Positions 22,350-26,400 of a DNA stretch of 64,000 nt are shown here, piece by piece. Origin of the DNA: an uncultured Alphaproteobacteria bacterium (GTDB lineage Bacteria > Pseudomonadota > Alphaproteobacteria > HIMB59); contig CACMUL010000002.1 of assembly GCA_902616855.1 (NCBI GenBank), forward strand, positions 62,001 through 126,000, written 5' to 3'. Every line of letters starts with the position of its first letter. Positions within the stretch are counted from its first letter, which is position 1. Below the pieces are notes generated by a model. That model worked only from the letters and a program-made list of their open reading frames with translations. It was not told the origin of the DNA and did no database searches. The position numbers and the translations under genes are program-made.

Positions 22350-22676
22350 TTAAATAAATAACACCGGTAAAAAGAAGAGAAAGGAAATACCAATAATTCC
22401 GTCTGTTATTAAAGAATAAAGTTTCATTTTATTTAATTGAAAATAATCCTCATAAACTTTGCCCAGTTGAATTCTAATATGAAGCATTGATATGATAAAA
22501 AAAATTAATAATAAAATCTTATTAGTGTAAGTAGATAATGAGATATTGAGAGAATTTGCATCAGAGTAAGAACTTAAAAAAAATAAAATAAACCAATAAC
22601 TAATAGGAATTAACGCTAGATATAAAATTCTTTCTATTTTCCATTTTTGAGAAGCTTTCATTAAAATATCATCCAA
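22350..22676 (-). CDS. sdhD: Succinate dehydrogenase membrane anchor subunit
   Basis: Three predicted TM segments, [13 protein letters not shown] haem-ligand-like region, position in sdhCDAB operon. Confidence 0.8.
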
Positions 22677-23026
22677 GTAAAAATCAAAGTCATTATAATA
22701 TTCGCTACTAGAATAAGATATGTCACTAAGTAGACATTTTTAAGATCCATTCCAATTGAAAATGACCATAAGAAATATTTAAAACCGTTTAACAAATGAT
22801 GATTAAAGATAAAAAACCAAAAGACAAATATTAGCTTTATAGGTAGCAAGTTTATCAACAATGTTAATACTTGATTAAGTTGAGGGAGAAAATTTAAGCT
22901 TCCTAACCAAATTGCAAAAAAAGGTAAAGAAAATGCAAATGCAATTACTCCTATCCTGCTGGAGATAGAAAATACCATTGTCAAAAAAGGCCTATATATT
23001 TGCAAATGGGGTGATATCGGAGCCAT
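22661..23026 (-). CDS. sdhC: Succinate dehydrogenase cytochrome b556 subunit
   Basis: SPHLQIYRPFLTMVFSISSRIGV motif. Confidence 0.9.
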   Translation of the reverse strand: MAPISPHLQIYRPFLTMVFSISSRIGVIAFAFSLPFFAIWLGSLNFLPQLNQVLTLLINLLPIKLIFVFWFFIFNHHLLNGFKYFLWSFSIGMDLKNVYLVTYLILVANIIMTLIFTWMIF

Positions 23027-23187
23027 AGAAAGGCAATATATTTAAAAATGTCTTATAGTAAAAAACTATTATTTTATTAATTCATGCGTTACATGAATAA
23101 ATAAGGCTGTGGAAAAAATGTTAATCAAATTGCCCATTCATTAAAATAAAGGTTCTGAAAAAGCCCTATATTCAATTAAAATTCAAT

Positions 23188-23273
23188 TAGGTCGTGAACA
23201 TTTTTGTTTAAATGTGCCGAATCTCACCCCGCATGAGAAAGCTTTATTCATATAAAGTTGGCACCACGACCTA
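23188..23273 (+). ncRNA. Candidate structured leader RNA upstream of TRAP dctQM
   Basis: 9-bp perfect closing stem TAGGTCGTG (23188-23196)/CACGACCTA (23265-23273), stacked GTGCC (23214-23218)/GGCAC (23260-23264), internal hairpins TCTCA/TGAGA and CTTTAT/ATAAAG. Confidence 0.6.
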
Positions 23274-23322
23274 TCAATATACTCTCTTTAATATGTTTAT
23301 TGTCTATATATAATCTGCTGCT

Positions 23323-23850
23323 ATGTCTGCTTTGGCACAATTATCCAAATTTATTGATCGATTTAATACAATCATAGGATATCTATGTGCTTTTTTTGTT
23401 TTCTCTATGGTCATAGTTGTATTCACTGTTGTCGTCTTAAGATATGGGTTCAATATTGGATTTATATGGATGCAAGAAGTTTATGTTTGGCTTCATAGTT
23501 TTGTTTTTATGTTGGGTGCTGGTTTTACTTATTTAGCTAATGAACATGTCAGAATAGATGTCTTTTACCGAGAGGCATCAAAAAAATATAAAGCCACTGT
23601 TGATCTATTTGGAAATATTTTTTTACTTTTACCTTTTTTATATATTATTTGGAATTACAGCTATCCCTTTGTATATAGATCTTTTTTAATGGGGGAGGTT
23701 TCTAGAGAAGCGGGCGGTATGCCTGCTTTATATATTTTAAAAAGTGCAATACTATGGTTTTGTTTAGTTTTATTTCTTCAATTAGTCTCTAATGTAATTA
23801 AATCAATACTAACACTTTCAAACTATCATTTGTCTGATAATAAATCATGA
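23323..23850 (+). CDS. dctQ: TRAP transporter small permease subunit (DctQ)
   Basis: Four-TM DctQ-like protein with FIWMQEVYVWLHSFVFMLGAGFTYLANEHVRIDVFY; followed by DctM. Confidence 0.92.
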   Translation: MSALAQLSKFIDRFNTIIGYLCAFFVFSMVIVVFTVVVLRYGFNIGFIWMQEVYVWLHSFVFMLGAGFTYLANEHVRIDVFYREASKKYKATVDLFGNIFLLLPFLYIIWNYSYPFVYRSFLMGEVSREAGGMPALYILKSAILWFCLVLFLQLVSNVIKSILTLSNYHLSDNKS

Positions 23851-25223
23851 TTAGTCCTGAAATTTTAGCAATTGTAATGTTTGTAACAACATTGGGGTTA
23901 TTACTTTTCGGTTTTCCCGTTGCTTTTACACTCGCTGGAACAGCTCTTCTGTTTGGATTTTTAGGAGATGCTCTGGAAATATTTAATTTCAGAATGCTAG
24001 GATTTTTTCCTCAACGCATTTTTGGAACAATGATTAATGAGCCCCTTGTGGCTGTGCCCCTATTCATTTTTATGGGAATAATGTTAGAAAAAACAAAAAT
24101 TGCAGCCGGACTATTACATTCAATTGGTGAACTTTTTGGGACCACAAAAGGAGGTCTTGGAATAGGTGTTGTAATAGTGGGTATGTTGTTAGCTGCATCA
24201 ACAGGCATTGTTGGTGCAACAGTTGTTACAATGGGAATGTTATCTTTACCCTCAATGATGAAAGCTGGCTATGATCAAAAAATAGCCACAGGCACAATTT
24301 GTGCCGCTGGTACATTAGGACAAATAATACCCCCCTCAATTGTTTTGGTTTTACTTGCAACAATTTTACAGGGCGCAAATGAAGAAGCAGCGATGTTAGT
24401 TGGTAATTTAGCTCCAGATCCGGTTACAGCAATTGATTTATTTGCTGGTGCTATTCTACCTGGATTGATGTTAGTAGTCTTATTTATAATTTTTATTTTC
24501 ATATACGCTAGAATAAACCCATTAAGTTGTCCACCTGTTGAAACTACCAAGTCAAGAACTGAGATATACATTGAAGCTGCTAAATCAGTTGTGCCTCCCA
24601 TAACTCTTATTGTGCTAGTTTTAGGCTCAATTTTATTTGGAATAGCTACCCCCACAGAGTCTGCATCAGTAGGGGCTGTTGGAGCTGCGATAATTGCACT
24701 GTTAAAGGGTGAATTAAATTTCAAGAACATTAAAGAGACAGCTTTAGGAACTGTAAAACTTAGTTCATTTGTATTTGTAATTTTAATTGGTGCCTCAATG
24801 TTTTCTCTTGTGTTTCGTGGTTTTGGTGGTGATGAAATGATAGAGCATTTTCTTGGAACTCTACCTGGTGGGCTTTACGCAGCACTAATTTTAGTAATGA
24901 TAGTAATTTTTCTATTAGGTTTTTTCCTAGACTATATCGAAATAATTTTTGTCATCGTTCCATTAGTTGGTCCAATATTAATTGCAAACGGAGCAGACCC
25001 CTTATGGTTAGGTATTCTTATTTCACTGAATTTACAGACTAGTTTTTTAACACCTCCTTTTGGATTTTCTTTATTTTTTTTAAGAGGAGTGGCCCCAAGT
25101 AGTATTAAAACTAGAAACATGTACAGAGGCGTAATTCCCTTCATAGGAATTCAGGTATTAGCTATATTAATTGTTGGTTTTTATCCTGAAATAGCAACCT
25201 GGTTGCCAAATAAAATGTTCTGA
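23847..25223 (+). CDS. dctM: TRAP transporter large permease subunit (DctM)
   Basis: Typical DctM TM pattern, GTLGQIIPPSIVLVLL, TPTESASVGAVGA, TSFLTPPFGFSLFFLRG motifs. Confidence 0.95.
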   Translation: MISPEILAIVMFVTTLGLLLFGFPVAFTLAGTALLFGFLGDALEIFNFRMLGFFPQRIFGTMINEPLVAVPLFIFMGIMLEKTKIAAGLLHSIGELFGTTKGGLGIGVVIVGMLLAASTGIVGATVVTMGMLSLPSMMKAGYDQKIATGTICAAGTLGQIIPPSIVLVLLATILQGANEEAAMLVGNLAPDPVTAIDLFAGAILPGLMLVVLFIIFIFIYARINPLSCPPVETTKSRTEIYIEAAKSVVPPITLIVLVLGSILFGIATPTESASVGAVGAAIIALLKGELNFKNIKETALGTVKLSSFVFVILIGASMFSLVFRGFGGDEMIEHFLGTLPGGLYAALILVMIVIFLLGFFLDYIEIIFVIVPLVGPILIANGADPLWLGILISLNLQTSFLTPPFGFSLFFLRGVAPSSIKTRNMYRGVIPFIGIQVLAILIVGFYPEIATWLPNKMF

Positions 25224-25230
25224 TATATAG

Positions 25231-25260
25231 ATCATCCCCGAATAGGTATCGGGGATGATT
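25231..25260. terminator. Bidirectional intrinsic terminator between dctM and dctP
   Basis: ATCATCCCCGA-ataggta-TCGGGGATGAT hairpin between convergent genes. Confidence 0.85.
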
Positions 25261-25272
25261 TTAATTTTATAT

Positions 25273-26400
25273 TTATGCTGATGGATAAGTAAATGGGAGA
25301 CTTCTTACTCTCATGTACTCTTTTTCAGATGTATTTGTCCATCTCAGAATTGATGATCTAAATTCAACAATATGTGAGAAAAGAGCCTGAGAAATAGGGT
25401 CTTCCGCTGCTATTGAGCTACAAACCTCTCCTGCTCTTTGACCCAATGCATTCATAACTGGATCTGGTAATTGTCTCATTTGAACACCATGCTCATTAAT
25501 AAGTTTTTGATACGAACTATCGTTTGCAGCTTGGAACATAGATAGAACTTCCATGTTAACTGCCTTAGTTGCGATTGTGACTAGCTCTTTAGTTGCGTCA
25601 TCAAGTTTTTCCCACTCAAACATATCTATTGAACAATCTAAGATAGTTGCTGGCTCATGCCATCCTGGGTTATAGTAATACTTAGCTGCTTGGTGTAATC
25701 CTTTACCTAAGTCAGCAGCAGGACCAATCCATTCTGTTGCATCAATCGCACCTGAGGCAAGTGATGGAAGCACATCCGCTCCAGCCAAAAGAACTGTATT
25801 AGCGCCAAAAGATTTTAATACCTCTCCACCAAGACCAGGCATTCTGATTTTTAGACCTTCAAAGTCTGCAAGTGAATTAATTTCTTTATTAAACCAACCA
25901 CCCATCTGGTTTCCAGTATTACCCATTGGAAGAAATTTTACACCGATAGCATTATAAGCTTTGTCTGCTGCTTCAATTCCTCCACCATAGTAACACCATG
26001 CATTTTGTTCTTGAGCCGTTAAACCAAAAGGTAAAGCTGCAGAAAAAGATGGAGCCATACTAATGTTTGTCCAATAATAACCTGCACCATAAGCCATTTG
26101 AGCGGCTCCAGATCTTACTGCGTCCAATGACTCAAGTGCTGGTACTAATTCGCCACCATGATAAACAGTAATTTTTAGTTTATCAGAAGCATTGTTAACG
26201 TAACTTGCAAATCTATCTATTGCTTGACCAAGACCTCCTGCTTTACCAAAAGCAGAACATGCAATCCATTCCATGTGTCCACCTGATATTGCTGGTGCTG
26301 GAAATGAAGAAACTGCTGCGGCGCCCAGTGCTGCAGCACCTGCACCTTTAAGGAAATTTCTTCTTTTCATGGTCTTATTATTAGTCCTCTTTTTTGCCAT
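25273..26400 (-). CDS. dctP: TRAP transporter substrate-binding protein, TakP-like (2-oxoacid type)
   Basis: Tat-like signal MKRRNFLKGAGAAALGAAAV; DATEWIGPAADLGKGLHQAAKYYYNPGWHEP motif typical of the TakP family. Confidence 0.9.
   Translation of the reverse strand: MAKKRTNNKTMKRRNFLKGAGAAALGAAAVSSFPAPAISGGHMEWIACSAFGKAGGLGQAIDRFASYVNNASDKLKITVYHGGELVPALESLDAVRSGAAQMAYGAGYYWTNISMAPSFSAALPFGLTAQEQNAWCYYGGGIEAADKAYNAIGVKFLPMGNTGNQMGGWFNKEINSLADFEGLKIRMPGLGGEVLKSFGANTVLLAGADVLPSLASGAIDATEWIGPAADLGKGLHQAAKYYYNPGWHEPATILDCSIDMFEWEKLDDATKELVTIATKAVNMEVLSMFQAANDSSYQKLINEHGVQMRQLPDPVMNALGQRAGEVCSSIAAEDPISQALFSHIVEFRSSILRWTNTSEKEYMRVRSLPFTYPSA

Follow-up and report, generated by a model that had tools for sequence, protein, structure and literature searches.

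The window, by which we mean the whole 64,000-nucleotide stretch of DNA that was analysed, was found to contain a structured element at positions 23189 to 23273 (+ strand), placed in a 296-nt gap between the divergent genes sdhC (22661 to 23026, - strand; PF01127) and dctQ (23323 to 23850, + strand; PF04290, E 4.9e-16). The dctQ gene encodes the small membrane subunit of a TRAP transporter and is followed by dctM (23847 to 25223, + strand; PF06808, E 3.6e-78), which encodes the large membrane subunit. DctQ, DctM, DctP and the SdhC cytochrome subunit were all confirmed by Pfam. The solute receptor encoded at 25273 to 26400 was found to match TakP-type keto-acid receptors (2hzk, 7ug8), which bears out the TakP-like transporter named near the element in the original prediction. 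The receptor gene is read from the other strand towards dctQM (convergent genes) and is thus outside the dctQM transcript. The distance of about 50 nt between the element and dctQ given in that prediction was also correct, the distance being 47 to 53 nt at all loci checked, with dctQ identity down to 63%. On the sdhC side, a -10-like TATAAG was present at 23057 to 23052, outside the element, and a block at 23040 to 23120 upstream of sdhC, containing the DnaA-box-like TTATAGTAAAAAACTATTATTTTATTAATTCATGC and TGTGGAAAAAATGTT, was strongly conserved throughout the genus. The cumulative GC-skew of G029:C1 (780 kb of HIMB59 read) was found to reach its minimum at about 294 kb, some 47 kb from the element (246.5 kb); this minimum is a broad, shallow valley, and a replication origin nearby is possible.

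The original prediction had described a multi-stem structured RNA, and every pairing that it named was found in positions 23188 to 23273, namely TAGGTCGTG/CACGACCTA, GTGCC/GGCAC, TCTCA-CCCCGCA-TGAGA and CTTTAT/ATAAAG. The fold consists of the closing helix P1, followed by the hairpin P2 and by the helix P3, which surrounds the hairpins P4 and P5. Folding of the + strand of the element gave -28.8 kcal/mol, with a z-score of -5.85 relative to dinucleotide shuffles (none of 200 being as good), and of 1958 GC-matched folds of 86 nt taken from the 64-kb window, a single one matched its stability. Further unusually stable folds were present near window positions 25231, 36501 and 39661, and these are probably gene-end terminators or structured gaps. 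The prediction had also proposed two mutually exclusive folds. The competing ACATTT/AAATGT hairpin does exist in the window sequence (-27.5 against -28.8 kcal/mol) but was found only in the clade of the window and in close ones, more distant lineages lacking it. In the divergent clade of L032, L033 and L034, a second GGCAC past P4 was found to permit a local GTGCC/GGCAC hairpin competing with P3.

The 5′ strand of P1 contained GGTCG (23190 to 23194) paired with CGACC (23267 to 23271), replaced in L081 by GGTTA/TAACC, a double change. The P2 hairpin (23195 to 23210) was found to vary across lineages in sequence and length, its stem being of the AAACA..TGTTT type, with double changes in three pairs; its arm reached about 60 nt in G014, G023 and G012, the genomes of L032, L033 and L034. 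The 5′ strand of P3 contained GTGCC (23214 to 23218) paired with GGCAC (23260 to 23264), with U-A, U-G, C-G and G-C, A-U exchanges, and was present in relatives as GCGCC/GGCGC and GCACT/GGTGC. The P5 hairpin (23242 to 23257) carried double changes in four pairs. No double changes were found in the P4 hairpin (23222 to 23238), the stem of which was nearly invariant together with flanking GAA/AAA nucleotides. Its loop, CCCCGCA (23227 to 23233), was invariant in the structural alignments and was the sole long invariant unpaired stretch of the element; it is a candidate seed.

In the structural alignment of 24 distinct sequences, 90.1% of the pair cells were standard, compared with 38 to 47% in slid controls. 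Double changes were found in 12 of the 30 pairs, and 36 cells were double-changed where shuffles gave 11.9 (none of 500 reached 36), in an alignment that was fitted to a covariance model and is hence biased toward the structure. A first MAFFT alignment gave 7 double-changed pairs against 3.4, and essentially the same fold was recovered by RNAalifold when no structure was supplied. Covariation was seen in P1, P2, P3 and P5, so that the compensatory changes proposed as a check of the P1 and P3 helices in the original prediction were present in both. The alignments support selection on base pairing in P1, P2, P3 and P5, together with an invariant CCCCGCA loop in P4. G-U wobbles were found in 28 cells and A-C mismatches in 5, counted as cells and not as independent events, and the + strand is therefore probably the transcribed one.

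Surface oceans harbour large numbers of HIMB59/AEGEAN-169 bacteria, which are highly streamlined. Homologues of the element were found by nucleotide search (E < 1e-6) in 30 of 37 genomes of this genus, and the covariance model detected it in 42 of 52, with exactly one copy in each, which rules out a repeat or paralogue. At every locus checked the element was located between sdhC and dctQ. Its absence from the other ten genomes looks like the result of assembly gaps, as neither a dctQ orthologue nor sdhC was assembled in eight of them and dctQ is at a contig edge in two (G006 and G007). A search of the sister family with the covariance model gave no credible copy, its four weak matches being coding sequence by eye. 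The dctQ orthologues of that family have no element beside them and are located elsewhere, a short gap after an upstream gene that looks like parC. When 85,462 species were scanned for the pattern, 68 loci came up, and the 39 strong model matches among them were compatible with the HIMB59 lineage; the matches in other phyla mostly misfitted the model, and the best of them (L113) lay inside an open frame. The viral contigs contained no match to the pattern, and the sample of 386 genomes of the class contained nothing beyond one weak match (L225), again inside an open frame. No Rfam family, known riboswitch models included, matched the element above threshold, and none matched seven divergent homologues at E up to 2, in keeping with the original prediction, which recognised in it none of the riboswitch classes known to it. 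No small RNA of HIMB59/AEGEAN-169 was found in the literature search. Judged from its sequence, the element is a previously undescribed folded RNA, restricted to the HIMB59/AEGEAN-169 genus in the searches made.

Upstream of P1, a predicted -10 box TAAAAT was found at 23177 to 23182 (+ strand), which places the predicted transcription start at 23189 to 23190. In an ungapped alignment, 14 of the 19 lineages carried a TA..AT box at positions -13 to -8 counted from the first base of P1, compared with at most 2 of 19 (mean 0.36) at other offsets, leaving a fixed 7 nt between the box and the first base of the RNA. The site was also picked up as CTGAAA-16-TAAAAT by a consensus scan; that scan found promoter-like sites no more often in the region than in shuffles, so the case for the promoter rests on conservation. 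The box at a fixed offset suggests that the RNA has its own promoter, with a predicted start coinciding with its 5′ end. That the structured RNA is genuine and is transcribed from a promoter of its own is very likely. A palindrome TTTTGA-N-TCAAAA was observed in the region of 23147 to 23159, about 31 to 43 nt upstream of the predicted start, in the HIMB59-side clades (clear in L025, L035 and L052); it overlaps the -35 region and is a possible transcription-factor site.

A second predicted promoter, CTTTAA-17-TATAAT (23286 to 23314, + strand), was found between the element and dctQ, 8 nt before the dctQ ATG. All of the 19 lineages had the box TATA[AC]T 32 to 36 nt past the element; in most it ended 8 to 10 nt before the ATG, and in most a TTTAA-like -35 was seen by eye roughly 17 nt from it. 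No recognisable Shine-Dalgarno sequence could be read before dctQ. Among HIMB59 genes, such boxes were somewhat enriched just before start codons (a count of 17 in a 5-nt bin, compared with about 8; for exact TATAAT, 5 compared with 1.7 expected), and a Shine-Dalgarno tetramer was present in only 15 to 19% of genes; together these features make a leaderless dctQ mRNA plausible. A scan for terminators downstream of the element found none, and a T-rich tract after P1 was present in about 10 of the 15 lineages listed and missing in the window's own clade.

The element had originally been proposed as a candidate riboswitch or cis-regulator in the leader of dctQM, with a 2-oxoacid-type signal as a conjecture. 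The conserved TATAAT box argues against the riboswitch, as it points to a dctQ transcript that starts downstream of 23273, the finding that the original prediction had itself named as speaking against it. Neither a switch fold nor an expression platform was seen to be conserved, the competing hairpin being missing in other lineages and the spacer between the element and dctQ keeping no conserved pairing or sequence except the promoter boxes. A broader form of the same idea, in which the element is a cis-regulatory leader (a riboswitch, a protein-binding leader or an attenuator) of a longer dctQM transcript from 23189 to 23190 and the TATAAT near dctQ is a second, constitutive promoter, is a reasonable possibility, short of likely. 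Strand and distance fit dctQ, since the element is on the same strand and always 47 to 53 nt upstream, and in several lineages T-rich sequence comes after the P1/P3 helix, so that the fold might serve as an attenuator in its own right. A leader role keeps this standing because no terminator shared by all lineages follows the element. The linkage to dctQ is, however, uninformative, as synteny extends over the whole region, and the sister-family dctQ manages without the element. The conserved promoter lies downstream of the element, nothing conserved joins the two, and dctQ offers no Shine-Dalgarno sequence to mask.

We favour, at slightly less than even confidence, the reading that the element is a stand-alone small RNA, specific to the genus and about 85 to 130 nt long; this is more likely than the dctQM riboswitch first proposed. 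Such an RNA would start from its own promoter on the + strand, with its 5′ end flush with helix P1 and paired in it. Regulation would act at that promoter, and the paired ends may make the RNA stable. Hfq (PF17209) was not found in the five genomes G000, G017, G023, G029 and G037, whereas the same search found it in control genomes, which suits a structured RNA acting through a loop. An Hfq-independent mode has been discussed for some small RNAs with C-rich motifs. The RNA may be pictured as presenting its C-rich P4 loop to G-rich ribosome-binding sites without Hfq.

Among such sites, the ribosome-binding site of ftsZ was found to contain GCGGGG in 23 of 23 genus genomes, as TGCGGGG in 20 and CGCGGGG in three, and the CCCCGCA loop is perfectly complementary to it over 6 to 7 bp, a match that is short and was chosen post hoc. 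In six genomes of the sister family, the family without the element, the site was GGCGGAG, that is GCGGAG; as GCGG is ancestral in the ftsZ site of the order, one A-to-G change would be enough for the match. In a scan of orthologue start regions of HIMB59 and G017, ftsZ gave the best genuine match, the one entry scoring above it being a spurious frame on rRNA by eye. It was the only conserved 7-mer match among 342 orthologue pairs, a screen that took in about half of HIMB59 and, as orthologue pairs, roughly one in four of its genes. Two of 42 loop permutations gave an equally good conserved match (roughly p = 0.05). The ftsZ site was also the only GCGGGG-ATG site common to all six genomes searched; genome-wide, GCGGGG..ATG was not clearly enriched over the reversed pattern. 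Exact targets of the 8-mer TGCGGGGT were no more frequent than in the control, and homologous sites were not found among them. The best candidate target of the small RNA is ftsZ, as a lead that is somewhat doubtful. Masking of the (T/C)GCGGGG site by the P4 loop would lower FtsZ synthesis. The full proposal, that a lineage-specific small RNA represses ftsZ translation independently of Hfq through its invariant loop and so ties carbon uptake to cell division, is unlikely on present sequence comparisons.

The same P4 hairpin could instead bind a protein, with the stand-alone RNA serving as a 6S-like decoy, a sequestering RNA or a scaffold and not acting by base pairing. The invariant loop, the nearly invariant stem with its GAA/AAA flanks and the compact, closed fold would suit this role, as would the absence of a genome-wide excess of loop complements; with no Rfam RNA of such a kind matching the element and no candidate protein identified, it is improbable. 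That the element has no RNA function and is a DNA inverted repeat, a cruciform or a short coding frame is highly improbable, since the wobble asymmetry favours one RNA strand and a promoter box stands at a fixed offset, although the - strand folds well too (z = -4.2). A short open reading frame was rejected by eye, single-base indels among the close relatives L001, L017 and L018 breaking the frames and the GTG/ATG start not being conserved.

For the favoured small RNA, a precedent is DicF of E. coli, which pairs with the ftsZ ribosome-binding site and represses ftsZ (PMC5069750), the same mode as is proposed here. By description, DicF is prophage-borne and 53 nt long, whereas the HIMB59 element is chromosomal, in the sdhC-dctQ gap, and larger; it occurs in a genus in which Hfq was not detected, and its pairing with ftsZ is a prediction. 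A cell-division small RNA of Klebsiella has been grouped with DicF for comparison (PMC10907235). Structured small RNAs with C-rich motifs, like the present element, are described in reports on sX13 of Xanthomonas and on the C-rich-loop RNAs of the Gram-positives S. aureus and Listeria (LhrC) (PMC3771888, PMC4132741, PMC9217828); no sequence relation to these was shown, and architecture, genomic neighbours and taxon differ. EcpR1 of Sinorhizobium meliloti is an alphaproteobacterial small RNA that modulates the cell cycle (PMC4414408); by description, its neighbourhood is another one and no homology was seen. Meyer et al. 2009 reported structured-RNA candidates of Pelagibacter, which had shown up as islands rich in G+C within the long intergenic regions of streamlined marine alphaproteobacteria, and the fourth of these motifs was judged a likely separately transcribed non-coding RNA (PMC2704228). 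The HIMB59 element is likewise a G+C-rich island in an intergenic region. By their descriptions, not by alignment, it is set apart from these motifs, none of which is described beside sdhC or dctQ, and it has no Rfam match.

A structured RNA that is retained in every assembled copy of the locus across the genus represents a new RNA family. If the link to ftsZ were true, this would be one of the rare cases in which a small RNA controls the division of a free-living oligotroph that has no Hfq, and an RNA transcribed next to the genes for succinate dehydrogenase and the keto-acid TRAP transporter would join carbon uptake to division in streamlined ocean bacteria.
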